In this document: in pieces, positions 6,268 to 19,942 of the stretch | Numbering within the stretch: the first letter of the stretch is position 1 | Layout: every line of letters begins with the position of its first letter | Assembly: GCA_937860145.1 (NCBI GenBank) | Contig: CALMBF010000071.1 | Coordinates: forward strand, 1-32,729 | From: an uncultured Geobacter sp. | GTDB taxonomy: Bacteria > Desulfobacterota > Desulfuromonadia > Geobacterales > DSM-12255 | Direction: 5' to 3' | DNA length: 32,729 bases | Notes under the pieces: model-generated | Told to the model about the DNA's origin: nothing | Database searches by the model: none | Seen by the model: only the letters and a program-made list of their open reading frames with translations | Position numbers and translations under genes: made by a program

Positions 6268-7158
6268 CTACTTACGGGTTTTTTTAGTTTTTCCCAGCGC
6301 TTCCTGCATGGCAACTCCCATTTTGGTTGGGCTCATGGCGACTGTCACGCCGCAGTCGGTCAATGTCCTGATCTTGTCCTCGGCCCGCCCCTTGCCGCCG
6401 GTGATGATGGCGCCGGCATGTCCCATCCTTCTGCCGGTGGGGGCGGTCACCCCGGCGATGAACGCGGCGACCGGTTTCTCCATGTTATCCCTGATCCAGA
6501 AGGCCGCATCCTCTTCGGCACCGCCGCCGATCTCGCCGATCATGAAGACCGCCTCGGTGTCGGGATCCCTGTTGAACAGTTCCAGGCAGTCGATGAACTT
6601 CATGCCGATGATCGGGTCCCCCCCGATGCCGACGCAGGTCGACTGCCCGAGACCGATGTCGGAGAGTTGCTTGACCGCTTCGTAGGTGAGGGTGCCGCTG
6701 CGGGAGACCACGCCGATCTTCCCGGGCTTGTGGATGTAGCCGGGCATGATGCCGACCTTGCACTCGCCGGGAGTGATGACGCCGGGGCAGTTGGGCCCGA
6801 CCAGCTTCATCGGTTTCCCTTCCAGGATCCTCCGGGCCAGGACCATGTCGCGGACCGGTATCCCCTCGGTGATGCAGACCGCCAGGGCGATGCCGGCATC
6901 GGCGGCCTCGAGGATGGCATCGGCAGCTGACGGCGGCGGCACGAAGATCATGGAGACGTCGGCCCCGGTGAACTGGACCGCCTCCTCGACGGTGTTGAAG
7001 ACCGGAATCCCCTCGATGTGAATCCCCCCCTTCCCGGGAGTCACGCCGGCGACGATCCGGCTGCCGTACTCCCGGCACTGCTGGGTATGGAAGAGGCCGC
7101 TCCGGCCGGTGATCCCCTGGACGACGATTCTTGAGCTGCCGTTGATCAGGATTGACAT
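6268..7158 (-). CDS. sucD: Succinyl-CoA synthetase, alpha subunit
   Basis: A 296-residue protein, close to the usual length of about 290. It catalyses interconversion of succinyl-CoA and succinate with formation of ATP or GTP in the citric-acid cycle. The N-terminal CoA-binding domain has [16 protein letters not shown] and GVTPGKGG. The phosphorylated active-site histidine is His247 in RRMGHAGAI, and the region [10 protein letters not shown] is also typical. It overlaps the end of sucC by 13 bases, so the two subunits are translationally coupled. The open frame continues far upstream, but the homologous N terminus ([15 protein letters not shown]) marks the real start at 7158. Fused or longer forms are not supported. 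Confidence 0.96.
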
Positions 7159-8348
7159 GGGCGCCTCTCCGTGACGGGGCCACCGCTCACACTTTTCAGC
7201 ATCGCCACGATCCTGGCCGCGCCGTCCCCCAGGTTTTCCCCGATCTGGACGTTCAGCCCCGAATCCCGCAGCAGCTTTTTCCCTTCCTCCACCTTGCTCC
7301 CGTCCATGCGGACGACGATCGGCAGCGTGCAGTGGACCTCCGCGGCTGCCTCGATGATCCCCTGGGCGATGACGTCGCAGTGCATGATGCCGCCGAAGAT
7401 GTTGACGAACACCCCCTTCACGTCGCTGTCCTGGAGAATGATCTTGAACGCCTCGGCAACCTTTTCCCTGGTGGCTCCCCCCCCCACATCGAGGAAGTTG
7501 GCCGGCTGCGCGCCGAACTCGTGCAGGACGTCCAGGGTTGCCATGGCCAGGCCGGCACCATTCACCATGCACCCCACGTTCCCCGCCAGCTTGATGTAGG
7601 AGAGATCGTATTTGCCGGCGGTGATCTCCAACTGGTCGAGCTGGGAGTAGTCGAGCATGTCCGGATACTCCCGGTGACGGAACAGGGCATTGTCGTCGAA
7701 GGTGATCTTGGCATCCATGGCCATCAGCCAGCCGGCCCTGGTGACAACCAGGGGGTTGATCTCCACGAGAAAGCAGTCCTTTTCCAGGGCGCAACGGTAC
7801 AGGTTGAGGATGAAGTCGACGCAGTCCTCGCAGATGCTCCCCGTGAGACCCAGGGCAAGGGCGATCCTGCGCGCCTGATACGGCCGGAGACCGGTAAACG
7901 GGTCGATCGTGAGCATGTGGATCTTCCGGGGCGAGGTTCTTGCAACTTCCTCGATGTCGATCCCCCCTTCGGCCGAGGCGATCAGGCAATAGCGCGATGT
8001 TTCCCGGTCCAGGGTTATGGAGAGATAGAATTCACGGGAGATCTCCACCGCCTCTTCGATCAGGATGCGGCGAACACGCAAGCCATCAGGCCCGGTCTGG
8101 GGGGTGACGAGTTTCCTGGCGAAAAGCTCTTTTCCCAGTTCGTGTGCCTGTTCGGGGTTATGCACCAGTCGGACCCCCCCGGCTTTGCCTCTGCCGCCGG
8201 CATAGATCTGGGCCTTGACGACACAGCGCCCCCCCATCTCCTTGGCGGCGCGCTCTACCTGGTCAGATGTCAGGGCGACTCTCCCCCGTGGAACCGGGAT
8301 GCCGTAACTGGAGAGGATTTCCTTGGCCTGGTATTCATGGATGTTCAT
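7146..8348 (-). CDS. sucC: Succinyl-CoA synthetase, ADP/GDP-forming beta subunit
   Basis: A 400-residue ATP-grasp subunit, slightly longer than the common ~388. The N terminus [22 protein letters not shown] is the family start and follows GAGGAA at a good distance, so earlier in-frame codons upstream of 8348 were rejected. Other landmarks: [42 protein letters not shown]-type sequence ([15 protein letters not shown]), [20 protein letters not shown] and [10 protein letters not shown], then [11 protein letters not shown]. It binds nucleotide and succinate and works with SucD. Transcription probably starts from the divergent promoter region near 8423-8451 shared with the giant cytochrome gene. 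In Geobacter-type metabolism the cycle is the main route for acetate oxidation. Confidence 0.96.
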
Positions 8349-8401
8349 GTCAGTTCCTCGTGGATACGTGTTGGATTTTACTTTTACCGCGAATTGCTCT
8401 G

Positions 8402-8429
8402 TTGACAAGTGGTTGGGCAAGATTATGCT
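8402..8429 (+). promoter_or_regulatory. Candidate promoter for the giant cytochrome gene
   Basis: TTGACA (8402-8407) is a perfect -35 box. A 16-base spacer and TATGCT (8424-8429) follow. If used, transcription would start near 8436 and leave a leader of about 280 nt before the cytochrome start. The -10 overlaps a minus-strand -10 for sucC. Confidence 0.5.
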
Positions 8430-8451
8430 TTGATTGATAATGTGTGAGCAA
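8423..8451 (-). promoter_or_regulatory. Candidate promoter for sucCD
   Basis: On the minus strand, TTGCTC (8451-8446), a 17-base spacer and CATAAT (8428-8423) make a plausible sigma-70 promoter about 75 bases before the sucC start. Its -10 overlaps the plus-strand -10 of the cytochrome promoter, so the two may exclude each other. Confidence 0.45.
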
Positions 8452-8713
8452 AAAAACGGTGAGGACTGTTTGGGCACAGAGTGTGCACATACTACTTGCG
8501 AAGCATAGGGCCGACACGAAGGCTCTGACGGGTAAAGTCAGGTAAGTTAAGGCAACTGGTCTGCCTGAACAGGGTTTGAAACAAATGCGAGTCTGGCGGT
8601 AGTGGTCATATAGCGGCCCGTGTACGGTCATTTAGCTGTCAGAACGCATGCTGATTAGTGATACTTAATTGAGAATAAAAGGTATAGGTCTAACACGTAC
8701 GGAGGGAACAGGT
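8436..8713 (+). promoter_or_regulatory. Long 5' leader with several hairpins before the cytochrome gene
   Basis: This stretch has no gene. It can form successive small hairpins: GCACA/TGTGC (8474-8486), AGGGCC/GGCTCT with one G-U pair (8507-8526), CTGAC/GTCAG (8525-8541) and AGGCA/TGCCT (8550-8566). A longer-range pairing ATGCG/CGCAT (8585-8589 with 8645-8649) is also possible. The ribosome site GGAGGG is at 8701-8706. Two of the hairpins overlap, so they would be alternatives. I could not match it to a known riboswitch; in particular the GEMM core sequences are not visible. Confidence 0.35.
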
Positions 8714-11700
8714 ATGAAGAGCAAATATGCACGGTGGAGCTTTTCGCATCTTCTGGCGATCATCATGATCGTCGCCGCCGGCTCTGCATTCGCAGCCGGT
8801 GAGACGTTGATGCACAACAGCGACAATCTCGGTACCACTTATGGTACATGGGGTGTCGCAGGCGGTACGTACGGGCAGTTCACCTGTTCGACCTGTCACA
8901 CCAAGACGACGACCAACGTCATGCGGGTTGTCGAGTCGATCCCCAATACGATCGGCCCCAACGCAAACAAGTCCGTCATGTTTAACAATATGACCGCCTT
9001 CGGCGATGACTCTGTCGTCCGTACCACCTCCTTCCGTATCTGCGAAGTCTGCCACACCCAGACCAAGTACCACCGGTATGACAATACGGCCCAGCCTGGC
9101 GGGCAGGGTCACCCGAACGGCGACTGTACCCAGTGCCACCCCCACGCGGATGGCTTCAAGGCAACCGGCTGTACCTCCTGCCACGGTCACAATGCGACCA
9201 GTGACAGCCCGATCGCAACGGGTAACCATACCGCCCACATCAACAATGCCGGCACGATCGGCGTGAATTACAGCTGCGCCGACTGTCACGCTCCGACAGT
9301 GAGCAGCGACACGACTTTCAGTAATGCGGCCAACCACAACAACGGCACCAAAAACTACGGCGGCACCCGCGCCGGCACCTTCAATGCCGGTACCTGTACC
9401 GCTACCTGCCACACCGACGGCAAGGGTGGTCCTGCGGCAACCGCGGTCAACTGGACTACGGGCCCGGCCCTCACCTGTAAAGGGTGCCACGGTGGCGCCA
9501 GCAGTACCGTTGGTGAGCCGGTTTATGCCAGCGGCGCAGCCGGCAGCGCAACCGCCAACAACCACCCGAAACACGTCGCCGCCACCGGCGGTGCCGCCTC
9601 CTGCCAGAACTGCCACGGCGCCACCATGAACGGTTCCGCCCTGAATGCCTCTGGCAAGCATACCGATATGACCATCGATGTGCTCCAGGGTAACAACAAG
9701 ACCTTCGGTTACACCGATGCTTCCAAGACCTGCTCCAACATCAGCTGCCACGGCAACGGCTTCTTCACCCCGGCAGACGCCCAGTGGGGTGCAGCCCTAG
9801 ACTGCGCCGGCTGCCACACGAGCTCCGCTGTCTCTGCTCTCGGCAAGCACGCCAAGCACCTGAGCCCGACGATCGCCAGTGCTTTCAACTGCGGTAACTG
9901 CCATGCCGATACCGCTACCAACAGCACGACCCTCAAGGCCGGCACGATCACCCACATGAATGCCGCCAAGGAAGTGAAGTTCGACACCAACAACGGCAGT
10001 GGCAGCTTTGACGGGACCAACTGCTCCAACATCTACTGCCACAGCTACGGTACGACCCTTAGCGGTCCGTTCAAGGTCAAGACCGTTGCGTCCTGGAGCG
10101 GTGCTGCTGTCAACTGCTATAGCTGCCACGGCAGCGACAGCACCACCGGCCTGTACAACAACATGTCCACCGGCCGTCACAAGAAGCACATGGTCGGCCA
10201 GTACACCTACGGCTGCGCCACCTGCCACGCCGCTACCGTATCTAACAACACCACCATTTCCGATGTCAGCAAGCACGTGAACGTGCAGATTGATGTCAGC
10301 TTCAGCGGCGTGGCCACGACCGGCGGTGCTGCCGCAACGTACGCCCTGAACGGCCACGCCCCGGGTGCAACCGGGACAGTCGATCAGTCCTGCAACAACA
10401 TCTACTGTCACAGTAATGCCCAGACCGGCGGACAGGTCGGAACCACCCACCGCTTCCGCAACCTGACCGGCGCCAAGCGGTTCAACCAGACCACCACCGT
10501 TTCCCTCGGCTGCAACGGCTGCCACTCCACCGGCTCCACAATCAGCGGTTCCTGGACACTGTCTGGTGCTCACCTTGCCCACCTGAGCCTGTCCGTCAAT
10601 CCGCAGATCGGCAAGGTGCTTGCCTGTAACGACTGCCATGCCAACGGCGGCACCAACCTGAACCGGGCAAACCACGCCAACGGCATCATCAACTACTCCT
10701 CCGCCCTCGGCGGCAGCAGTGCCCGGGGTAACCTGAAGCTCTCCACCGGCCGGTGCAACACCGTCTACTGCCACTCCAACGGCCAGGGTGTCTACAACAA
10801 CATGAGTACGGTTGCCTGGTTCTCCGGGGCGAAACTCGGCTGTAATGGCTGCCATGCGAATGCGGCCAATGCCTCGTCCCTCTCCGGTGCTCATAACGCC
10901 CACATCAATGGCGGTACCACCGGTGGTTCGTTCAACTGTAAAGACTGCCACGCCAGCACCCTGAATGTCACCTTCGGCAGCAGCACGACCATCAATGCTT
11001 CCGGCAACCATGTCAATACCCTGAAGAACTTCTCCGGTGCCAAGGCATACAAGACCGGTTACGTTGCCGGTGGTGCCTGCTCCACCTACTGCCACACCGA
11101 CGGTCGCGGTACTGCCGTTGCCCCGCCGCTCTGGGTCTCCGGGACGAACCTTGATTGCGGTGGCTGCCACGGCAAGGATGCCGCCTCCATGACCTCCAAC
11201 CGTCACGCAGAGCACCTTACCAAAGGGGCAACCTGCGCCAACTGCCACAACTCCACGACGACCAACGGTACGCAGATCACCGGATCTGTCCACATCGACG
11301 GTTCGGTAGAGCTGCAGCAGGGTGGTAGCTTCAGCTCCAAAGCAGTTGAGTTTGCCTACGCCGGTGGCGGTACCTGTAACAACATCTCCTGCCACTCCCC
11401 GTATGCGAGCCCATACAGCAATACTGCATCCTGGAATGCTGCGACCCCGGCAACCTGCGACACCTGCCACCCGAAAGCCGGTCTGTCCGGTGCGCACAGA
11501 ACCCATATGGGCGCCCTCGATCTGACCAGCGCCAGCATCTACTACAACATGACCGCCAACCGTTCGCCGGCTCAGGACGAGTCGGTCGGCAGGACCTACG
11601 GTTTCGGTTGCGGTACCTGTCACCCGATGACGACCGCCAACCACCTCAACGGTACCATCGACGTCGATCTCAACAGGGTGAATGTCGCCGGAGTCGGTAC

Positions 11701-12520
11701 GCTCCGCTTCCTCAATCACTCGACCGCCGGTTACACCATGGGGTCGACCAAGAAGTGCTCCAACATCTACTGCCACAGCAACGCATCGAGGATCGAGGCC
11801 GAGTCTAACGCTGCCTCCAACACCTCCCTCGCCTGGAACGATACGTACGCTGCCCATCCGGAACTCGACCGCTGCGCCCAGTGCCACGGCAACCAGCCGA
11901 CAACCGGTGCCCATGCCGCCCACTCTGTCGGTCTGCATACGTTCAACGACGGCGTGATGCTCGATGGTAACATCTACAACGGCGTATCGGGCAAACTCCC
12001 CATCACCAACAAGCCGAACACTGCCCACGGCAATCCGAACAACTCCACGACCATCGGGTGCTACATCTGTCACAATGCAACGGTTACCAGCAAGGCAAAC
12101 GACAGGAACACCAAGTGCTCTGGCTGTCACTATGCCGGTAATCCGAGAGGTGCCCAGCTGAAGGGTGTTGCCACCGTTGCCAACCTCGCGAACCATGTCA
12201 ACGGCATGCGCGACGTCCAGTTCGCTCCGATCCAGATGCGCAGCAAGGCGCAGGTCAGGCCGAAGGGTGCGAACACGGCATCGAACAGCGGCTTCGACTT
12301 CTACAGCGGCGTATGGCAGCGTACCTCCTACAAGGCCTACTCCACGCTCTCCTACGACATAGCCAAAGCTGCCTTCGATACGGCCACCATGTGGCATCCG
12401 GGCACAGCGATGAACAGCAACTGTAGCAACATCGCCTGCCACAACGGCAGGACCGTGTCCTGGAACCTTGCTAACTTCAATGACCCGAACAAGTGCATGG
12501 ACTGTCACAATGCACTCTAA
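8714..12520 (+). CDS. Giant multihaem c-type cytochrome, CxxxxCH/CxxCH type
   Basis: A 1268-residue exported protein: signal peptide about residues 1-27, with a likely cut at AFA/AG. I count 32 haem-attachment motifs: 23 CxxCH, 7 CxxxxCH (CSNIYCH, CNNIYCH, CNTVYCH, CSNISCH, CNNISCH, CSNIACH types) and 2 CxxxCH (CTATCH at 228-233, CSTYCH at 789-794). The body is made of imperfect repeats in the order H..H, CxxCH, HxNG-type segment, CSNIYCH-like, tryptophan, LxCxGCH, as in the Geobacter C4xC/C2xCH family. It is rich in Gly, Ala, Ser, Thr and Asn. ATG 8714 follows GGAGGG by 7 bases; an upstream TTG at 8669 lacks a ribosome site and would mask the signal peptide. It is probably periplasmic or on the outer surface, in long-range electron transfer. 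It forms a single-gene unit with its own terminator. Confidence 0.93.
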   Translation: MKSKYARWSFSHLLAIIMIVAAGSAFAAGETLMHNSDNLGTTYGTWGVAGGTYGQFTCSTCHTKTTTNVMRVVESIPNTIGPNANKSVMFNNMTAFGDDSVVRTTSFRICEVCHTQTKYHRYDNTAQPGGQGHPNGDCTQCHPHADGFKATGCTSCHGHNATSDSPIATGNHTAHINNAGTIGVNYSCADCHAPTVSSDTTFSNAANHNNGTKNYGGTRAGTFNAGTCTATCHTDGKGGPAATAVNWTTGPALTCKGCHGGASSTVGEPVYASGAAGSATANNHPKHVAATGGAASCQNCHGATMNGSALNASGKHTDMTIDVLQGNNKTFGYTDASKTCSNISCHGNGFFTPADAQWGAALDCAGCHTSSAVSALGKHAKHLSPTIASAFNCGNCHADTATNSTTLKAGTITHMNAAKEVKFDTNNGSGSFDGTNCSNIYCHSYGTTLSGPFKVKTVASWSGAAVNCYSCHGSDSTTGLYNNMSTGRHKKHMVGQYTYGCATCHAATVSNNTTISDVSKHVNVQIDVSFSGVATTGGAAATYALNGHAPGATGTVDQSCNNIYCHSNAQTGGQVGTTHRFRNLTGAKRFNQTTTVSLGCNGCHSTGSTISGSWTLSGAHLAHLSLSVNPQIGKVLACNDCHANGGTNLNRANHANGIINYSSALGGSSARGNLKLSTGRCNTVYCHSNGQGVYNNMSTVAWFSGAKLGCNGCHANAANASSLSGAHNAHINGGTTGGSFNCKDCHASTLNVTFGSSTTINASGNHVNTLKNFSGAKAYKTGYVAGGACSTYCHTDGRGTAVAPPLWVSGTNLDCGGCHGKDAASMTSNRHAEHLTKGATCANCHNSTTTNGTQITGSVHIDGSVELQQGGSFSSKAVEFAYAGGGTCNNISCHSPYASPYSNTASWNAATPATCDTCHPKAGLSGAHRTHMGALDLTSASIYYNMTANRSPAQDESVGRTYGFGCGTCHPMTTANHLNGTIDVDLNRVNVAGVGTLRFLNHSTAGYTMGSTKKCSNIYCHSNASRIEAESNAASNTSLAWNDTYAAHPELDRCAQCHGNQPTTGAHAAHSVGLHTFNDGVMLDGNIYNGVSGKLPITNKPNTAHGNPNNSTTIGCYICHNATVTSKANDRNTKCSGCHYAGNPRGAQLKGVATVANLANHVNGMRDVQFAPIQMRSKAQVRPKGANTASNSGFDFYSGVWQRTSYKAYSTLSYDIAKAAFDTATMWHPGTAMNSNCSNIACHNGRTVSWNLANFNDPNKCMDCHNAL

Positions 12521-12561
12521 TCCGGCCTGATCTCCGGATAGATGTCTGGTTGTTACCCTCG

Positions 12562-12591
12562 ACCCCCTGGCGAAAGCCAGGGGGTTTTTTT
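12562..12591 (+). terminator. Intrinsic terminator of the cytochrome gene
   Basis: A perfect 9-bp stem CCCCCTGGC/GCCAGGGGG (12563-12571, 12576-12584) with a GAAA loop is followed by seven T (12585-12591). It lies 42 bases after the cytochrome stop. Confidence 0.95.
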
Positions 12592-12878: not shown

Positions 12879-13415
12879 TTAGAAGAAGAGGAAAAACCCG
12901 TTGGCAAAGTAGATGATACCGACCGAGCCTACGGCGATGCCGAGCAACCAGAGTGGTTTTTTCTTGATAAGCGCGGCAATGGATGAAAGCAGTATGGCAA
13001 TCTGCAGATAGATGACCGCGATGCCGAAAATCTGTGAATGCTTCTGGGCATCGTTACGGATAGTTTCATAATTCTTGGCGGTGCGCAGGATGTCACTCTT
13101 CTCGGCTTCGTACTTCCGGATCTTCTGCGCGTAGTCATCGATCTTTGCGACATACGATTCTGTGGCTGCTGCCGTGAGGCGTCCCGCGCCAGCTTTCAGT
13201 TCGAGTTCCAGCTTGTCCCGCTGCATCTCGTACAAGTACCCCTTGATACTTTTCGCCTGATAGTAGGACCACTGGTCCGATGCCTGGGTCTGGCTCATGA
13301 CCGATCTGGTGGAATATCCGCCCCCCTTGAACGTGGAAAGAGTTGCACAGACGGCCAGGATGACCGTCGTGAGTGCAAGGTAGTTCAACCATGGCTCCTT
13401 CTTCTCTTCACCCAT
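12879..13415 (-). CDS. DUF4337 family membrane protein
   Basis: A 178-residue protein of unknown function matching the DUF4337 pattern. After a short charged N terminus (MGEEKKEPW) comes a membrane segment NYLALTTVILAVCATLS. Then comes FKGGGYSTRSVMSQTQASDQW with YYQAKSIKGYLYEMQ, and a charged helical, probably coiled-coil stretch from about 70 to 125. Two closing membrane segments are near 130-150 and 157-176. ATG 13415 was chosen because GGAGGG precedes it by 5 bases; an upstream in-frame ATG at 13445 lacks a site. It diverges from the nap operon across a 196-base gap that carries a CRP/FNR-type palindrome, so shared control is possible. Confidence 0.82.
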   Translation of the reverse strand: MGEEKKEPWLNYLALTTVILAVCATLSTFKGGGYSTRSVMSQTQASDQWSYYQAKSIKGYLYEMQRDKLELELKAGAGRLTAAATESYVAKIDDYAQKIRKYEAEKSDILRTAKNYETIRNDAQKHSQIFGIAVIYLQIAILLSSIAALIKKKPLWLLGIAVGSVGIIYFANGFFLFF

Positions 13416-13493
13416 CCGCACCCTCCTTTCATTAAATAAATGCATTATACCTAAAGAAATAACTGAAGGTAAAGGACTCCTTATCCCCCACCC

Positions 13494-13857: not shown

Positions 13858-13881
13858 ATGGTGTTTCCAAAGGAGGATCCC

Positions 13882-16188
13882 ATGGCGTTAAGCAGACGAG
13901 ACTTTCTCAAGGCCAGTGCGGCAGCGGCGGCTCTGGCGGCGGCGACCGGAGGCAGACTAGGTGTGGATGATGCTGAAGCTGCTGAGGGCGGCTTAAAGTG
14001 GGGCAAGGCCCCCTGCCGTTTCTGCGGCACCGGTTGCGGCGTGCTGGTCGGGGTCAAAGACGGGAAGATCGTCGCGACCAAGGGTGACCCTGCTGCTCCG
14101 GTCAACAAGGGGCTGAACTGCATAAAGGGGTACTTCCTGTCGAAAGTCCTCTCGGGAAAGGACCGGCTCACAAAGCCGCTTATCCGCAAGGGTAACAGGA
14201 TGGTCGAAGCATCCTGGGACGAGGCAATGAGCCTGATTGCAAGCAAGTTCAAGGAGTCGATCGCCAAGCACGGACCTGATTCGGTCGCCATCTTCGGCTC
14301 GGGTCAGTGGACGGTATTCGAGGGGTATGCCGCGGCCAAGCTGTTCAAGGGGGGAATCGGCACCAATAACATCGAGCCGAATGCCCGCTTCTGCATGGCG
14401 TCCGCGGTGACCGGGTTCATGTCGACGTTCAACAGCGACGAACCGATGGGGTGCTACGACGACCTTGACCTGGGGGATACCTACTTCCTCTGGGGAGCTA
14501 ACATGGCAGAGTGTCACCCCGTTCTCTTTTCCCGCCTGATCGACAACCGCCTCAAAAATCAGAAGGTGAAGATCATCGACTTCGGGACTCGTCATACCCG
14601 CACCTCCCAGATGGCGGACATGTACATCCGGTTCAATCCCCAGACCGACCTTGCACTCCTCAATGGCATAGCCCATATCATCGTGCGGGACAAGTTGTAT
14701 GACGAGAGTTTCATCAGGAAGCATGTCGTGTTCAAAAAGGGGAAAACAAACATCGGTTACGGGCTAGAGGACAAGTTCAAGTTTGCCGACGATCCCAAGC
14801 CCATGTCCTTTGACGAGTACAGGGAGTTTCTCGCGCCGTATACACCCGAATACGTGTCAAGACTCTCCGGTGTTCCCGTGAACACCATCGAAGAAGTTGC
14901 CAGGCTCTACGCTGATAAAAAACGGAAGGTGAACTCACTCTGGACCATGGGGTTCAACCAGCACGTGCGCGGGACCTGGGTCAACAACCTCGTCTACAAC
15001 GTCCATCTGCTCACCGGCAAGATCTGCAAGCCGGGGGAGAACCCCATGTCCCTCACCGGCCAGCCCTCCGCCTGTGGAACGGCACGGGAAGTAGGCACCT
15101 TTACCCATCGACTTCCAGCCGACATGGTCGTGACGAACGAGGAGCACCGCAAGAAGGCCGCGGAGATCTGGGGTGTGCCGGTAGAGAAGATTCCGGCAAA
15201 ACCGACCTACCATGCGACGGAGATGTTTCGCGCCCTTGACCGTGGCGACATCAAGGTCCTCTGGGTCCAGGTCACGAATCCGTTCCAGTCGGCCCCGAAC
15301 CTGTCGCGGTACCGTAAAGGGGCGCGCAAGGGGGGCGGGCGTTTCATCATCGTGTCGGACATTTACCCCACCCGCTCCACCGAGCTGGCAGACGTGATCC
15401 TCCCGTCCGCGTCATGGGTCGAAAAGGAGGGCTTTTTCGGCAATGCCGAGCGCCGCGGCCAGCAGTGGTTCAAGATGGTCGACCCTCCGGGGGAGGCGAG
15501 AAATGATCTCTGGCAGACCATCGAGCTGGCAAAGCGGCTGGGGTACGGTAACCTGTTCCCTTACAGGTACGTGGAAAAAGAGATCTTCGAGGAGTACCGG
15601 AAGTTCACGGTCGGGGGGAAGGACCTCGCGCCCTACGAGGCCTATACCAGGGCACGGGGTCTGCGCTGGCCCTATGTGAACGGCAAGGAGACCCTCTGGC
15701 GCTACGCCGAGGGGTACGACCCCTACGTGAAGGCCGGCGAGGGGGTCAAGTTCTACAAGAACAAGCCGACCGACGGCAGGGCGGTGATCTGGGCCCGACC
15801 CTACGAGCCGGCTGCCGAGGTGCCCGACAAGCAGTATCCGTTCTGGCTCTGCACCGGGAGGGTGCTGGAGCAGTGGCATACGGGGACCATGACCGGCCGG
15901 GTTCCCGAGCTGAAACGGGCCTACGGTACGGCGGTCTGCGAGATGCATCCGGATGACGCGAAGAGACTCGGCATAAAGCAGGGGGGAAAGGTGAAACTCA
16001 CCTCCCGCCGCGGGTCGATCGTCCTGACCGCCGATCTGCGCGGCAGGGGGAAGGCGGAAAGGGGCAATGTCTTTGTTGCCTTCTTTGACGAGAACAAGCT
16101 GATCAACGAGCTCTGTATCGATGCCTACTGCCCCATATCGGGGGAGCCGGACTACAAGAAGTGCGCCGTTAAAGTCGAGAAAGCATAG
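13882..16188 (+). CDS. napA: Periplasmic nitrate reductase, catalytic subunit
   Basis: A 768-residue molybdopterin oxidoreductase reducing nitrate to nitrite in the periplasm. The N terminus carries a twin-arginine signal (SRRDFLK, residues 4-10) and an Ala-rich segment. The [4Fe-4S] ligands are Cys45, Cys48, Cys52 and Cys80 (C-x2-C-x3-C-x27-C). The molybdenum ligand is Cys171 in NARFCMASAV, followed by DEPMGCYDD as in NapA. The C-terminal dinucleotide-binding domain includes CTGRVLEQWHTGTMTGR. It is nearer in length to the monomeric Desulfovibrio NapA than to the 828-residue E. coli enzyme. ATG 13882 is preceded by AGGAGG at 5 bases; an in-frame ATG at 13858 would disturb the Tat signal. Assimilatory NasA-type reductases lack such a signal. 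Confidence 0.95.
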   Translation: MALSRRDFLKASAAAAALAAATGGRLGVDDAEAAEGGLKWGKAPCRFCGTGCGVLVGVKDGKIVATKGDPAAPVNKGLNCIKGYFLSKVLSGKDRLTKPLIRKGNRMVEASWDEAMSLIASKFKESIAKHGPDSVAIFGSGQWTVFEGYAAAKLFKGGIGTNNIEPNARFCMASAVTGFMSTFNSDEPMGCYDDLDLGDTYFLWGANMAECHPVLFSRLIDNRLKNQKVKIIDFGTRHTRTSQMADMYIRFNPQTDLALLNGIAHIIVRDKLYDESFIRKHVVFKKGKTNIGYGLEDKFKFADDPKPMSFDEYREFLAPYTPEYVSRLSGVPVNTIEEVARLYADKKRKVNSLWTMGFNQHVRGTWVNNLVYNVHLLTGKICKPGENPMSLTGQPSACGTAREVGTFTHRLPADMVVTNEEHRKKAAEIWGVPVEKIPAKPTYHATEMFRALDRGDIKVLWVQVTNPFQSAPNLSRYRKGARKGGGRFIIVSDIYPTRSTELADVILPSASWVEKEGFFGNAERRGQQWFKMVDPPGEARNDLWQTIELAKRLGYGNLFPYRYVEKEIFEEYRKFTVGGKDLAPYEAYTRARGLRWPYVNGKETLWRYAEGYDPYVKAGEGVKFYKNKPTDGRAVIWARPYEPAAEVPDKQYPFWLCTGRVLEQWHTGTMTGRVPELKRAYGTAVCEMHPDDAKRLGIKQGGKVKLTSRRGSIVLTADLRGRGKAERGNVFVAFFDENKLINELCIDAYCPISGEPDYKKCAVKVEKA

Positions 16189-16204
16189 AAGGCGGAAGCG
16201 GCTC

Positions 16205-16873
16205 ATGGGGAAGGATGGACAGAACGGGGGTCCGGGTTGCACCCGGCGGCAGTTTCTCAAGGGGGGGGCATCGCTCCCCCTGGGGCTGGTCATGGCGGGG
16301 GGACTTGTCAGCATACCCTACCTGCGCCGGACGGGTGGCGGGGAGTTCATGCTGCGGCCGCCGGGAGCCCTCGAAGAAAAGAGATTTCTCGGTGCGTGCC
16401 TGAAGTGCGGCAAGTGCGCACGGGTCTGCCCCTACGGTTCCATCAGGCTTGCCGGGCCGGAGGCGGGCGTCGCGATCGGCACGCCGGTGATCATCCCCCG
16501 TAAAGAGCCCTGCTATCTCTGTCCCGATCTTCCCTGCGTCACGGCCTGTCCTTCGGGAGCGCTCGACAGGGGGGTGCAGGAGGTGGAAAAGGTGCGCATG
16601 GGGACGGCGGTCATCGTCGACCGGGCGAACTGTCTTTCCCTGCGCGGCCTGCGCTGCGAGGTCTGTTACCGCAACTGTCCCCTCATGGACAAGGCGATAA
16701 CCATCGAGCCCAGGCACAACGAGCGGACCGGTACCCATACCATCATGGAACCGGTTGTCCATCATGATAAATGCGTCGGGTGCGGGATCTGCGAAAAGAC
16801 CTGTGTCCGGGAGAGACCGGTGATTGTCGTGCAAAAGAGCCCGCCACGCCAGGACGATCACTATGAGTTTTAA
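16205..16873 (+). CDS. napG: Ferredoxin-type protein NapG (quinol dehydrogenase component)
   Basis: A 222-residue iron-sulfur protein with a twin-arginine signal (CTRRQFLKGGASLPLG, residues 12-27), so it is exported folded to the periplasmic side. Four cysteine clusters follow: CLKCGKCARVCPYG, CYLCPDLPCVTACPSGAL, the looser CLSLRGLRCEVCYRNCP, and CVGCGICEKTCVRERP, matching the four [4Fe-4S] sites of NapG/MauM proteins. With NapH it is thought to carry electrons from menaquinol toward NapA. The start at 16205 follows the napA stop by 16 bases. An in-frame ATG at 16121 lies inside napA and was rejected. It overlaps napH by 11 bases. Confidence 0.92.
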   Translation: MGKDGQNGGPGCTRRQFLKGGASLPLGLVMAGGLVSIPYLRRTGGGEFMLRPPGALEEKRFLGACLKCGKCARVCPYGSIRLAGPEAGVAIGTPVIIPRKEPCYLCPDLPCVTACPSGALDRGVQEVEKVRMGTAVIVDRANCLSLRGLRCEVCYRNCPLMDKAITIEPRHNERTGTHTIMEPVVHHDKCVGCGICEKTCVRERPVIVVQKSPPRQDDHYEF

Positions 16874-17636
16874 GCGGTGGACAGTCGCGCGACGATGCAC
16901 CCAGCTTGCCGTGGTTCTGCTGCTGGCCTCTCCCCTGGCCGGTACGACATTGTTTGCCGGCAGCCTGGCAGCAGCCGACATCGCCGGGCTCCCCCTCGTC
17001 GATCCCTTGGCCGCGGTGCAGGCGGTCCTGGCCTCCCGTGTCCACCCTGCGGCACTGCTCCTGCCGGCGGCAGGTGTGGCGCTGTCCTACCTTCTTGCCG
17101 GCGGCAGGACCTTTTGTGCCTGGATCTGCCCGGTCTACCTCATGGGAGAGGCCGGGGACCGGCTCCGGAGGTTCCTGGGGGGCGGTGAAAAGACCTTCCC
17201 CCTGGTGGCCAAACAGTGGCTGCTGTTGTTTGTCCTGGTGTGCACCGTGGTAACGGGGCTCCCGCTCTTTGAGACAGTGTCGCCCATCGGCCTGACCAGC
17301 AGGGCAATCGCCTACGGAAGTTACGGAGGGGCGGCCTGCCTGGCTGGCCTGCTCGCCATCGAGGTGCTGCTCGCCCGGCGGGTCTGGTGCCGCTCCCTCT
17401 GCCCGCTGGGAGGCTTCTATTCCCTGCTCGGGCGGCTGTCGCCGGTCGGGGTTGCCTTCGCTCCGGCACGCTGCAACGACTGCGGCGAGTGCAGCCGGGT
17501 CTGCCCGGTGGAAGAGGTGCTGGAACCCGTTCTCGCCCGTTCGGCGGAGCGGGTCGTGTCGGGGGAGTGCACCCGCTGCGGTTCGTGTATCGACATCTGC
17601 CCCCATGGAGCACTCGGCCTGGGCAAGGTGCGATGA
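16863..17636 (+). CDS. napH: NapH-like membrane quinol dehydrogenase with two [4Fe-4S] sites
   Basis: A 257-residue inner-membrane protein with about four hydrophobic segments (near residues 10-35, 60-80, 115-135 and 150-170). It carries the paired CAWICPV and WCRSLCPLGGFYSLLG motifs after membrane helices that are typical of NapH. A C-terminal polyferredoxin part has CNDCGECSRVCPVEEV and CTRCGSCIDICPHGAL. It is expected to oxidise menaquinol together with NapG. The start overlaps napG by 11 bases, implying coupling. No NapC or NrfH tetrahaem gene is seen in the window, so NapGH is the only visible quinol entry point of this operon. Confidence 0.92.
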   Translation: MSFKRWTVARRCTQLAVVLLLASPLAGTTLFAGSLAAADIAGLPLVDPLAAVQAVLASRVHPAALLLPAAGVALSYLLAGGRTFCAWICPVYLMGEAGDRLRRFLGGGEKTFPLVAKQWLLLFVLVCTVVTGLPLFETVSPIGLTSRAIAYGSYGGAACLAGLLAIEVLLARRVWCRSLCPLGGFYSLLGRLSPVGVAFAPARCNDCGECSRVCPVEEVLEPVLARSAERVVSGECTRCGSCIDICPHGALGLGKVR

Positions 17637-17676
17637 TAACGACACTATAAAGAAACATGTCAGCCAGGAGGTTCCC

Positions 17677-17973
17677 ATGAAAACCACGCGTCGTCTGCTG
17701 CTCTGCCTGCTGTTGCTGCTCTCCTGCGCTCTTCCTGTGCGTGCCGACGAGTCGGAGGAGGATCTGGAAAAGGCCGCCCGCATGGCAGAGAGCACTCCGC
17801 CGGTGATCCCCCACAGGGTCGAGGCCGGTTCCTCGGGCGAGGCGTGTCTTGCCTGCCACCGGGACGGCATCAAGGGTGCTCCGGCAACGCCTCACCCCGA
17901 GCGGCTGGATTGCGTCCAGTGCCACGTCCAGGGGGAGGTCAAGGTCAAAAAGAGTAAAAAAGGGAAGCACTGA
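17677..17973 (+). CDS. napB: Small dihaem cytochrome c, NapB-like
   Basis: A 98-residue exported protein: signal peptide about residues 1-23 (cut near VRA/DE), two haem motifs CLACH (57-61) and CVQCH (79-83). The segment STPPVIPHRVEA before the first haem, the GAP..TPHP between them and CVQCHVQ match the NapB layout (PPVIPHSVE..CLQCH..CLQCHVPQ in E. coli). It is shorter than usual NapB (about 130 residues after signal removal), chiefly because the loop between the haems is cut down, and it ends in a lysine-rich tail. It would hand electrons to NapA. A good ribosome site CAGGAGG precedes ATG 17677. The NapB call is by similarity of motifs. Confidence 0.8.
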   Translation: MKTTRRLLLCLLLLLSCALPVRADESEEDLEKAARMAESTPPVIPHRVEAGSSGEACLACHRDGIKGAPATPHPERLDCVQCHVQGEVKVKKSKKGKH

Positions 17974-17979
17974 CATCCC

Positions 17980-18339
17980 ATGTCTGTGAACCAGGGTCGC
18001 AAGGAGTTCCTTACCCGCGGGATGATCGCCTTTGGCCGGGATCTGCTCCGGTCGGTCCGCAGCGAAGGGGCAGGGGACGGGGGACGTGGGGAGATCGTTT
18101 GCCAGGGTAGGATGGTCCTGGATAACGCCAGGTGCCTGGCCCAGCGTGGAGGGTGCTTTGCCTGTCTGGACATCTGTCCCCGGGAGGCGCTCTGGATCAG
18201 GCCCGGTGTGGGTATACACGTTGCTGAAGAGAAGTGTGACGGGTGCGGCGAGTGCAGGGACGCATGTCCCCTCGACCCGCCGGCCCTCAGGGAATATTGC
18301 GCACCAGCAGGAACACAACCAGAGGTGAAAGGAGACTAG
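17980..18339 (+). CDS. napF: NapF-like 4Fe-4S ferredoxin
   Basis: A 119-residue protein with two [4Fe-4S] motifs: C52-x6-C59-x2-C62-x3-C66-P and C86-x2-C89-x2-C92-x3-C96-P. Its first 25 residues (MSVNQGRKEFLTRGMIAFGRDLL) recall the N terminus of NapF, which lacks a cleaved signal and acts in the cytoplasm, where NapF has been linked to NapA maturation. E. coli NapF has more clusters, so this is a shortened relative. It lies 6 bases after the NapB-like gene and 1 base before the octahaem reductase gene. Alternative: an electron carrier serving NapGH. Confidence 0.72.
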   Translation: MSVNQGRKEFLTRGMIAFGRDLLRSVRSEGAGDGGRGEIVCQGRMVLDNARCLAQRGGCFACLDICPREALWIRPGVGIHVAEEKCDGCGECRDACPLDPPALREYCAPAGTQPEVKGD

Positions 18340-18340
18340 T

Positions 18341-19942
18341 ATGCAGAAAAAACGTATCGTGCTTGCCACGGCACTGATCGGCACGGCAGCACTGTTGTCG
18401 CTGCCGGTACTGACCACGGCGGCGAAGAGCAAACCGGTGACAGTGGCCAATGACGGGCGGGCAAAGTGTTATGAATGTCACGAAGAGATCAAGGCGATGA
18501 AGGAGGGGTCCAAGCACGCCAAGCTTGCCTGCAAGACCTGTCACGACAACCTCGACAAGCACCTGTCGAGCATGGGGGAGACCAAGCCGGTGACGCTCAT
18601 CGACGCGGCGCTGTGCGGCAAATGCCACAAGGACCAGTTTGAAAGCTTCTTCAAGATGAACTACGAGGCGCAAGCCCGCAAGGAGAAGGGGATCCCCACG
18701 GGCCGGTCGCCCATGCAGGACAAGCTCCTCGAACCCTACGGCTTTACCATCGAGCACAATGAGCCCCGTGGCCATGCCTTCATGGTGGTCGACCAGTTCA
18801 TCGTCGACCGCTTCCAGGGGGGGCGTTACCAGCTGAAGGACGGGGTCACGGGATATGCCACCTCGGGCAAGACCTGGGACGTGCTGGTGGACAAGGGGGA
18901 GAAGACCAAGCTGCCGGAGACGGCCATGGCCGGGAATCCCACCTGCATCCAGTGCAAGACATCCGACCACGTGCTCAAATGGAAGTTCATGGGGGACAAG
19001 GACCCCAAGGCCAAGTTCGACCGTACCTCCAATGTCAACGACGTGGCCAAGGAGACCAACAATCCGGTCGGCTGCATCCACTGTCATGACCCCCACGGCA
19101 CCCAGCCGCGGGTGGTGCGCGATGCGCTTCTCCAGGCGATCGACAAGGACAGGGGTGGGAACATCTTCTCCAAGGGGGGGAAGACCGACCTGAAAGAGAT
19201 GGATTTCCGCGGCTTCCGCAAGATCGGTGTCATGGAAAAGACCGATTCCCGCTTGATGTGTGCCCAGTGTCACGTGGAGTACGCCTGCGGAGCGGGGTTC
19301 CAGTGGAGTGATAACGCCAAGGTGGGGTATGCCGACCAGCGGACCAACCACTTCCCGCTCAAGAACGCCAAGGAGCTGCTGGCCCACTACAAGAAACTTG
19401 ATTTCTACGATTTTAAGCATGCTGTGACCGGTGCCCGCCTGATCAAGCTGCAGCACCCCGAGGCCGAGGCATTCGCCGGGAGTGTCCACGACAGGGCCGG
19501 GGTCCAGTGCCACCAGTGCCACATGCCGAAGCAGAAGGGTAAGGACGGCAAGATGTTCTCGACCCACGGGGTGATCCGGCCGAAGAGCCACGTGAAGGAG
19601 GCCTGTCTCGGCTGCCATCCCAAGGCGACGGTGGAGCAGAAGCTCTACCAGATCGAGGCGGTGCAGAACTACACCAAGGGGAAGATGCGCAAGGCAGAGT
19701 ACTGGATCGGTCGCCTGATCGATACCTATACCGTTGCCAAGCGGGCCGGCGTCCCGGAAGATGTCCTGGCCAAGGCGAGGGAGAAGCATGAAGAGGCCCA
19801 CGTGCAGTGGGAATTCTGGACCGCGGAAAACTCGGACGGCTTCCACAACCCGGACCTAGCCCGCGACACCCTGACCTTTGCCATCAAGGCGGCCAAGGAT
19901 GGCGTTGCCCTGCTGAACGAGGCGATAGACAAGAAGAAATAG
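18341..19942 (+). CDS. Octahaem c-type nitrite reductase (ONR, TvNiR-like)
   Basis: A 533-residue exported cytochrome (signal peptide about 1-28). Eight haem motifs: CYECH 43, CKTCH 64, CGKCH 92, CIQCK 202, CIHCH 245, CAQCH 307, CHQCH 390 and CLGCH 422. The single CxxCK, with lysine as the proximal ligand of the catalytic haem, is fourth in order, as in the octahaem nitrite reductases of Thioalkalivibrio. Pentahaem NrfA lacks the three N-terminal haems. Expected catalytic residues are Arg143 (PRGHAF), Tyr314 (HVEYAC) and His409 (STHGV). Tyr314-Ala-Cys316 matches the Tyr-x-Cys pair that forms a covalent crosslink in TvNiR. It should reduce nitrite by six electrons to ammonium in the periplasm. 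AAGGAG precedes the start, and the operon terminator follows. Confidence 0.93.
   Translation: MQKKRIVLATALIGTAALLSLPVLTTAAKSKPVTVANDGRAKCYECHEEIKAMKEGSKHAKLACKTCHDNLDKHLSSMGETKPVTLIDAALCGKCHKDQFESFFKMNYEAQARKEKGIPTGRSPMQDKLLEPYGFTIEHNEPRGHAFMVVDQFIVDRFQGGRYQLKDGVTGYATSGKTWDVLVDKGEKTKLPETAMAGNPTCIQCKTSDHVLKWKFMGDKDPKAKFDRTSNVNDVAKETNNPVGCIHCHDPHGTQPRVVRDALLQAIDKDRGGNIFSKGGKTDLKEMDFRGFRKIGVMEKTDSRLMCAQCHVEYACGAGFQWSDNAKVGYADQRTNHFPLKNAKELLAHYKKLDFYDFKHAVTGARLIKLQHPEAEAFAGSVHDRAGVQCHQCHMPKQKGKDGKMFSTHGVIRPKSHVKEACLGCHPKATVEQKLYQIEAVQNYTKGKMRKAEYWIGRLIDTYTVAKRAGVPEDVLAKAREKHEEAHVQWEFWTAENSDGFHNPDLARDTLTFAIKAAKDGVALLNEAIDKKK

Follow-up and report, generated by a model that had tools for sequence, protein, structure and literature searches.

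The window analysed here is the whole stretch of 32,729 nucleotides from an uncultured Geobacter sp. (contig CALMBF010000071.1, assembly GCA_937860145.1), and the gene in question encodes a c-type cytochrome with 32 haem-binding motifs. We propose, with a probability of roughly 0.6, that the product is an exported, soluble, single-chain multihaem cytochrome that would carry and store electrons along a row of 32 haems, a reading drawn from motif content, modular layout and analogy to characterised proteins. In kind the cytochrome is ordinary; the notable part is that it appears to evolve in steps of whole units, which related iron-reducing bacteria gain or lose, and this is worth following.

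The 1268-residue chain contains 23 CxxCH, seven CxxxxCH and two CxxxCH motifs (the last at residues 228 and 789), and on recount these figures agree exactly with those given in an earlier note on this DNA. All 64 cysteines lie within the motifs, and 2000 shuffles of the protein gave a mean of 0.5 motifs with a maximum of 4. By eye, the signal sequence ends in AFA-A and contains no cysteine. Because the best 19-residue Kyte-Doolittle mean past residue 40 is only 0.8, as opposed to 2.0 in the signal, no membrane anchor is seen; the signal peptide and the missing anchor described earlier both hold up. The sequence encodes a real, probably exported protein, which should bear 32 haems, with the signal sequence as the evidence for export. 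The computed mature chain is about 128 kDa, or about 148 kDa with 32 haems, and the haem density is 38.75 residues per haem. Scans against Pfam and NCBIfam found no catalytic domain in the protein.

The order of the motifs reveals a modular layout. Written as the number of residues between the two cysteines, the spacings read 222 / 223 / 224 224 224 224 / 223 / 224 224 / 22242, i.e. a trihaem N-terminal cap (N-cap), eight trihaem units and a pentahaem C-terminal cap (C-cap). Each unit consists of two CxxCH motifs followed by CxxxxCH (six units) or CxxxCH (two units), so that both CxxxCH motifs occupy the CxxxxCH slot, and the other 16 slots are all CxxCH. Successive long-spacing motifs are exactly three motifs apart in seven of eight steps, a regularity equalled in only 3 of 200,000 random reorderings of the motifs. 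The earlier description of a regular repeat was therefore right about the order but understated it, since the spacing varies only in one slot of the unit and in one motif of the C-cap. The eight units span 91-127 residues (mean 110). An alignment of 22 of the 30 full units from the window gene and its relatives at loci L021 and L022, leaving out first and last units and near-duplicates, shows no variation in the haem-motif residues or in an HxxH pair, and at least 90% conservation of a lone histidine (the third distal one) and of a tryptophan. Each unit has three proximal and three distal histidines, therefore bis-His ligation is expected within units; with 40 histidines outside the motifs, all 32 haems could be ligated in this way.

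Profile searches place the protein clearly in TIGR01904/PF09698, a known but little-studied Geobacter family. The whole protein scores 217.1 bits against TIGR01904 (cut-off 27) and 80.2 bits against PF09698 (cut-off 21.7). When the array was cut into eight segments in the phase of cytochrome c7 (described below), PF09698 matched all eight at 20-40 bits, seven of them above the cut-off, compared with one of eight shuffles that kept the frame of Cys and His residues (10 bits). The window genome alone contains at least 120 TIGR01904/PF09698 domain matches, counted with 150 of 265 candidates scored. Members of this family, annotated as GSu_C4xC__C2xCH, likewise alternate CxxxxCH and CxxCH motifs. 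The models cover a single piece of 36-73 residues, and the trihaem register, the caps and the tendency in motif number discussed below lie outside the model descriptions seen.

The units also resemble cytochrome c7. They have the ligand order of c7 modules and read HxxH-CxxCH-H-CxxxxCH-CxxCH, with CxxxxCH or CxxxCH in place of CxxCH in the middle slot, and the whole protein scores 88.6 bits against PF14522 (cytochrome c7; cut-off 24.8). Segments cut in the c7 phase match this model in seven of eight cases (16-26 bits), six of them nearly end to end, as against eight of eight in the other phase (12-19 bits), none end to end. The same genome encodes c7 polymers of nine, four and three modules (loci L146-L160 and L163; G000:C179, C200 and C162, where G000 denotes the window genome; G001 etc. 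and L021 etc. are labels of the searched genomes and loci). By eye, the position of the lone His of the window protein is taken by Met in these polymers.

How could such a protein work? If our reading is correct, every motif would carry a haem, every haem would be bis-His ligated, and neighbouring haems would lie within hopping distance. Electrons might enter from small periplasmic cytochromes and exit either at the opposite end or by passing to a conduit in the outer membrane, and the likeliest location would be the periplasm or the periplasm-facing side of the outer membrane. The role would be that of a conduit or capacitor, not of an enzyme. At the rise per haem of GSU1996, whose 12 haems span 12 nm, the chain when stretched out would measure about 30 nm. 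By analogy with GSU1996, the function as a haem wire that had been suggested from the sequence appears plausible.

Some results weigh against this picture. PF14522 also matches eight of eight frame-keeping shuffles (14-21 bits), therefore the c7 resemblance is mostly a matter of ligand order. A profile of 18 c7 modules from the same genome, run on 32 modules, gave 3.4 bits in the c7 phase, 4.0 in the other phase and 2.1 for frame-keeping shuffles. The unit may thus be called c7-like in ligand order, and sequence kinship to c7 beyond the ligand frame is not supported by the profile. Finally, AlphaFold models of the C-terminal 702 residues and of one unit had a mean predicted local distance difference test score of 30 and 57, at alignment depths of six and 22 rows, respectively, and are unusable.

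The evolution of the array is best followed at one locus. The window gene sits between sucCD and a gene of the DUF4337 family. Orthologous sucC (at least 83% identity, the window genome counted) is present in 10 of the 13 searched genomes of the family, and a capped cytochrome adjoins it in five of these ten: the window genome, G001, G005, G007 and G008. Note that the sucC flanks in G002, G006, G009 and G011 were left out, and that the contig of G010 stops just beyond sucC. In G004 the C-terminal end of the cytochrome gene, followed by DUF4337 and napA, is found at a contig end. DUF4337 lies near the cytochrome in the window genome, G004, G005 and G007, is on another contig in G008, and was not found in G001. 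The cytochromes at this locus differ in motif number: 32 in the window and 44 in G005, G007 and G008. In G001 two contigs bear 10 and 36 motifs; if these are one gene, at least one more motif lies between them, which makes at least 47.

The caps are conserved. The window protein shares 70% (N-cap) and 75% (C-cap) identity with G001 and 55% and 69% with G007, and when array and C-cap are aligned together the identity is 44% to both. Most neighbouring genes are better conserved than the cytochrome: identity to G007 is 86% for sucC, 88% for sucD and 73% for DUF4337, and identity to G001 is 92% for napA, 78% for the octahaem reductase and 73% for napG, with lower values for napH (58%), a small ferredoxin-like open reading frame (ORF, 53%) and a NapB-like ORF (53%).

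Growth by internal duplication, as proposed in the earlier note, is borne out for the family: the units align, genes at the same locus vary in length by complete units, and recently copied units are present in relatives. It does not extend to recent growth of the window copy itself, as its eight units are mutually only 24-39% identical and no tandem DNA repeat spanning units was found in the window gene. In G001, adjacent units are 90% identical. Five proteins with 44 motifs have their best internal pairs three units apart, which corresponds to a duplicated nine-haem block of 348-364 residues whose copies are 68-91% identical in DNA. The 44-motif proteins of G022 and G035, both single-contig genomes, have within-protein copies that are 83-98% identical, as compared with 76-79% between the same units 5-7 of the two proteins and 74-85% between units 8-10 of G022 and units 5-7 of G035. 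This suggests homogenisation of the block or its repeated duplication; the pattern in G005 and G008 is mostly that of one shared duplication. As the five block-carrying relatives all have 44 motifs, the 32 motifs of the window could be a shortened form. This is only a guess, because four other ORFs matching both caps have 20, 37, 59 and 68 motifs.

At this point one may ask if the motif count is partly an artefact of assembly, or if only some of the motifs bear haem. Contig ends cut the gene in G001 and G004, so a draft genome may misstate how long an array is, and 9 of the 32 motifs differ from CxxCH. Nevertheless, we give this explanation hardly any weight: the window gene has no array-spanning tandem DNA repeat, its units are far from identical, and 44-motif relatives occur in the single-contig genomes G022 and G035. 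Collapse of the array during assembly is accordingly unlikely, a judgement that does not extend to a near-identical tandem copy.

We also considered a broader proposal, in which the length of a single-molecule haem wire is an evolvable, quantised trait. Conserved caps would hold an array that gains or loses trihaem units, plus a nine-haem block that some genomes homogenise, and the genes at a single locus would thereby give wires with 32 haems, with 44 or with no fewer than 47, fitted to the distance or charge need of each species. As a whole this proposal is tentative, and we regard it as rather unlikely.

The wider family shows similar regularities. Across the order, 141 genomes were searched; the N-cap is matched in 62 of them and the C-cap in 54. 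We analysed C-capped ORFs, read from stop to stop, in 40 regions hand-picked from the matches; note that these proteins are mutually related. Among 36 complete ORFs, 26 have 3n+2 motifs where chance would give 12, and five each have remainder 0 and remainder 1; eight further ORFs cut by locus edges were left out, and the G005 protein (44 motifs, L121) was dropped by a filter. A strict 3n+2 rule, broken by 10 of the 36, was rejected, and the motif count is better described as a strong tendency in these sequences than as a law. Over all 44 C-capped ORFs, one long motif follows another at a distance of exactly three motifs in 335 of 407 steps. The result is a natural length series of 14, 17, 20, 23, 32, 35, 38, 44, 56, 59 and 68 motifs, a ready set for relating conductance or charge storage to haem number per chain.

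Two further observations concern the large cytochromes of these genomes. Firstly, a cytochrome with 24 or 27 motifs adjoins a C-capped 3n+2 cytochrome in several genomes, as if the two were paired (L063 2182-7138, G000:C24 of the window genome, with 27 and 14 motifs; L135, L129, L132, L137 and L138, the 24-motif ORF being cut by the locus edge in L137 and L138). Secondly, G000:C134 carries three neighbouring giant cytochrome ORFs (L054 834-12284, L055 791-12385 and L056 833-13915). Read from stop to stop they are 3816, 3864 and 4360 residues long, and their haem motifs number 63, 62 and 86. Published single proteins include one with 69 motifs (PMC4914508) and one with 86 from ANME-2c (PMC9012536), and the count of L056 equals the latter, the largest in the literature surveyed.

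The genes next to the cytochrome raise the possibility of a dedicated role, namely that it distributes or buffers electrons in the periplasm for the adjacent nitrogen-oxide respiration (nap plus octahaem nitrite reductase). Genes for the reduction of nitrogen oxides (or sulphite) are found downstream in all five genomes in which the downstream side can be read. napA is present in the window genome, G001 and G004 (92% and 86% identical to that of the window), in G007 (L145 1907-11959) the cytochrome is followed by a gene set for a respiratory nitrate reductase, in which Pfam finds the beta and gamma domains of this enzyme, and a nitrite/sulphite reductase gene stands between cytochrome and DUF4337 in G005 (L143 8144-9439). 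On the other hand, the cytochrome gene has its own terminator-like hairpin (one of eight terminator-like sites in a scan of the region, where 4.8 are expected), the next gene in the window is in the opposite orientation, the neighbouring enzymes, in the slot beside DUF4337, vary by genus, sulphite could be the substrate of the G005 enzyme, and it is sucCD, on the other side, that is conserved next to the cytochrome. We consider a dedicated nitrogen role improbable because the downstream enzymes differ and the gene has its own terminator-like hairpin. The coordinates of the features in the window are collected in Table 1.

Table 1. Features of the cytochrome gene and its surroundings in the window.
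Feature	Coordinates	Strand	Remarks
sucC	7149..8348	-	divergent neighbour of the cytochrome gene
Ribosome-binding-site-like GGAGGG	8701..8706	+	ahead of the cytochrome ATG; read from sequence
32-haem c-type cytochrome gene, TIGR01904/PF09698 family	8714..12520	+	1268 residues, ATG start
Sec-type signal sequence, about residues 1-28	8714..8797	+	judged by eye; no lipobox cysteine; hydrophobicity peak at residues 9-29
N-cap	8798..9139	+	motifs 1-3, all CxxCH
Trihaem unit 1	9140..9412	+	CxxCH, CxxCH, CxxxCH
Trihaem unit 2	9413..9751	+	CxxCH, CxxCH, CxxxxCH
Trihaem unit 3	9752..10042	+	CxxCH, CxxCH, CxxxxCH
Trihaem unit 4	10043..10411	+	CxxCH, CxxCH, CxxxxCH
Trihaem unit 5	10412..10774	+	CxxCH, CxxCH, CxxxxCH
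Trihaem unit 6	10775..11095	+	third motif CxxxCH
Trihaem unit 7	11096..11395	+	CxxCH, CxxCH, CxxxxCH
Trihaem unit 8	11396..11776	+	CxxCH, CxxCH, CxxxxCH
C-cap	11777..12517	+	motifs 28-32: CxxCH, CxxCH, CxxCH, CxxxxCH, CxxCH
Terminator-like hairpin	12561..12586	+	just 3' of the cytochrome gene; 11 pairs (8 G-C), then a T run
DUF4337 gene	12879..13445	-	next on the other side of the cytochrome
Nitrate-to-ammonia cluster: nap genes and octahaem nitrite reductase gene	13858..19942	+	separate from the cytochrome gene
napA, napG-like, napH-like and NapB-like dihaem ORF	13858..17973	+	precede the nitrite reductase gene; napA above the NCBIfam cut-off
Octahaem nitrite reductase gene	18341..19942	+	7 CxxCH and CIQCK; matches the solved octahaem nitrite reductase 8rv0 at E 1e-232

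The region ahead of the gene was considered as a riboswitch or structured leader, and this idea was rejected. No Rfam family matched the window at gathering scores, nor did any match 8400-8760 at E up to 5; the folding energy is at the mean of the shuffles (z -0.05), and the leader was matched in none of 19 other genomes searched.

It is useful to weigh our reading against the known ways in which Geobacter and other bacteria move electrons outwards. The protein could be a terminal reductase exposed at the cell surface, or a component of a porin-cytochrome conduit in the outer membrane, in the manner of MtrC or the large PCC3 cytochromes. PCC3 cytochromes are likewise built of repeats, with 10-85 motifs and 22-39 residues per haem (PMC5566968, PMC10734462), a range that includes the value found here, and the whole protein scores 52 bits on PF22113, which represents MtrC/MtrF domains (cut-off 30). 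However, no single stretch passes this model, and two of eight frame-keeping shuffles match it at 17-21 bits. Pfam scans of the window ORFs, made with no PCC3-specific model, recognised neither a porin nor a PCC3-type five-helix inner-membrane gene, and there was no porin among the ten neighbouring ORFs scanned in the same-locus relatives. A surface or conduit role seems quite doubtful.

Another alternative would make the cytochrome a building block of extracellular filaments such as those of OmcS, OmcE or OmcZ. These too are exported multihaem Geobacter cytochromes, and the present protein looks exported, has a high haem density, lacks an anchor and comes from a Geobacter relative. But no PDB chain matches it at E up to 1, and with the profile of the unit OmcS (6ef8) reaches no better than E 0.27 and OmcZ (8d9m; PMC9473688) E 0.25, with OmcE not among the best 60 of the 87 PDB matches of that profile. 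Kinship with Geobacter cytochrome filaments, with which the earlier note suggested a comparison, is therefore not supported by sequence. The filament proteins are smaller, polymerising subunits (407 and 473 residues in the OmcS and OmcZ chains), and a protein that lengthens by internal units need not polymerise. We hold a filament subunit to be very unlikely. The other PDB matches of the unit profile are only scattered multihaem proteins, with UndA the best at 1e-8; such matches were not read as kinship, as they are sums of weak haem-motif stretches with a best single i-Evalue of 0.07.

The differences in length by units also have a bearing on how such genes are compared. A 2026 study reported that Geobacter cytochromes have high mutation rates (PMC12977616), in an analysis of rates that kept homologues only within +/-2 motifs and 20% of length. 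Such a filter would by construction exclude same-locus genes that differ by units. If the haem number does shift by threes between same-locus genes, then haem counting is a poor test of orthology. The literature surveyed, which was partial and without supplements, holds no description of a unit-step change of length at one locus in TIGR01904 cytochromes.

Finally, we compare the protein with known multihaem cytochromes of similar build. The largest cytochromes of three Geobacter species have 34-37 haems, and those with 12 or 27 haems were described in 2010 as fusions of four or nine c7 modules (PMC2996986). The Geobacter cytochromes with 26, 27 and 34-37 haems (e.g. GSU2495) are of the same size class and from related bacteria, a likeness at the level of description. 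The same applies to the PCC3 cytochromes of iron oxidisers, which are repeat-built and reach very high motif counts (up to 85 in 2017, PMC5566968; the periplasmic ones have 21, 24 or 27) and were modelled in 2023 as long and mostly linear (PMC10734462); their genes, however, are accompanied by those of a porin and an inner-membrane protein, and no such gene was recognised beside the window gene. In the nine-module c7 chain of the window genome the modules are 73-80 residues apart, as opposed to the 91-127 residues of the window units. The closest parallel in architecture is GSU1996 of G. sulfurreducens, in which four trihaem domains in one chain hold 12 haems over 12 nm, with haem edges 3-5 A apart, and which has been called a capacitor (PMC10138318). 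Like GSU1996, the window protein would be a single soluble chain of repeated trihaem domains with the same ligand order. GSU1996 differs in that each of its four domains contains one haem with His-Met ligation (PMC10138318), whereas the window protein has eight units with a CxxxxCH slot and a conserved lone His.

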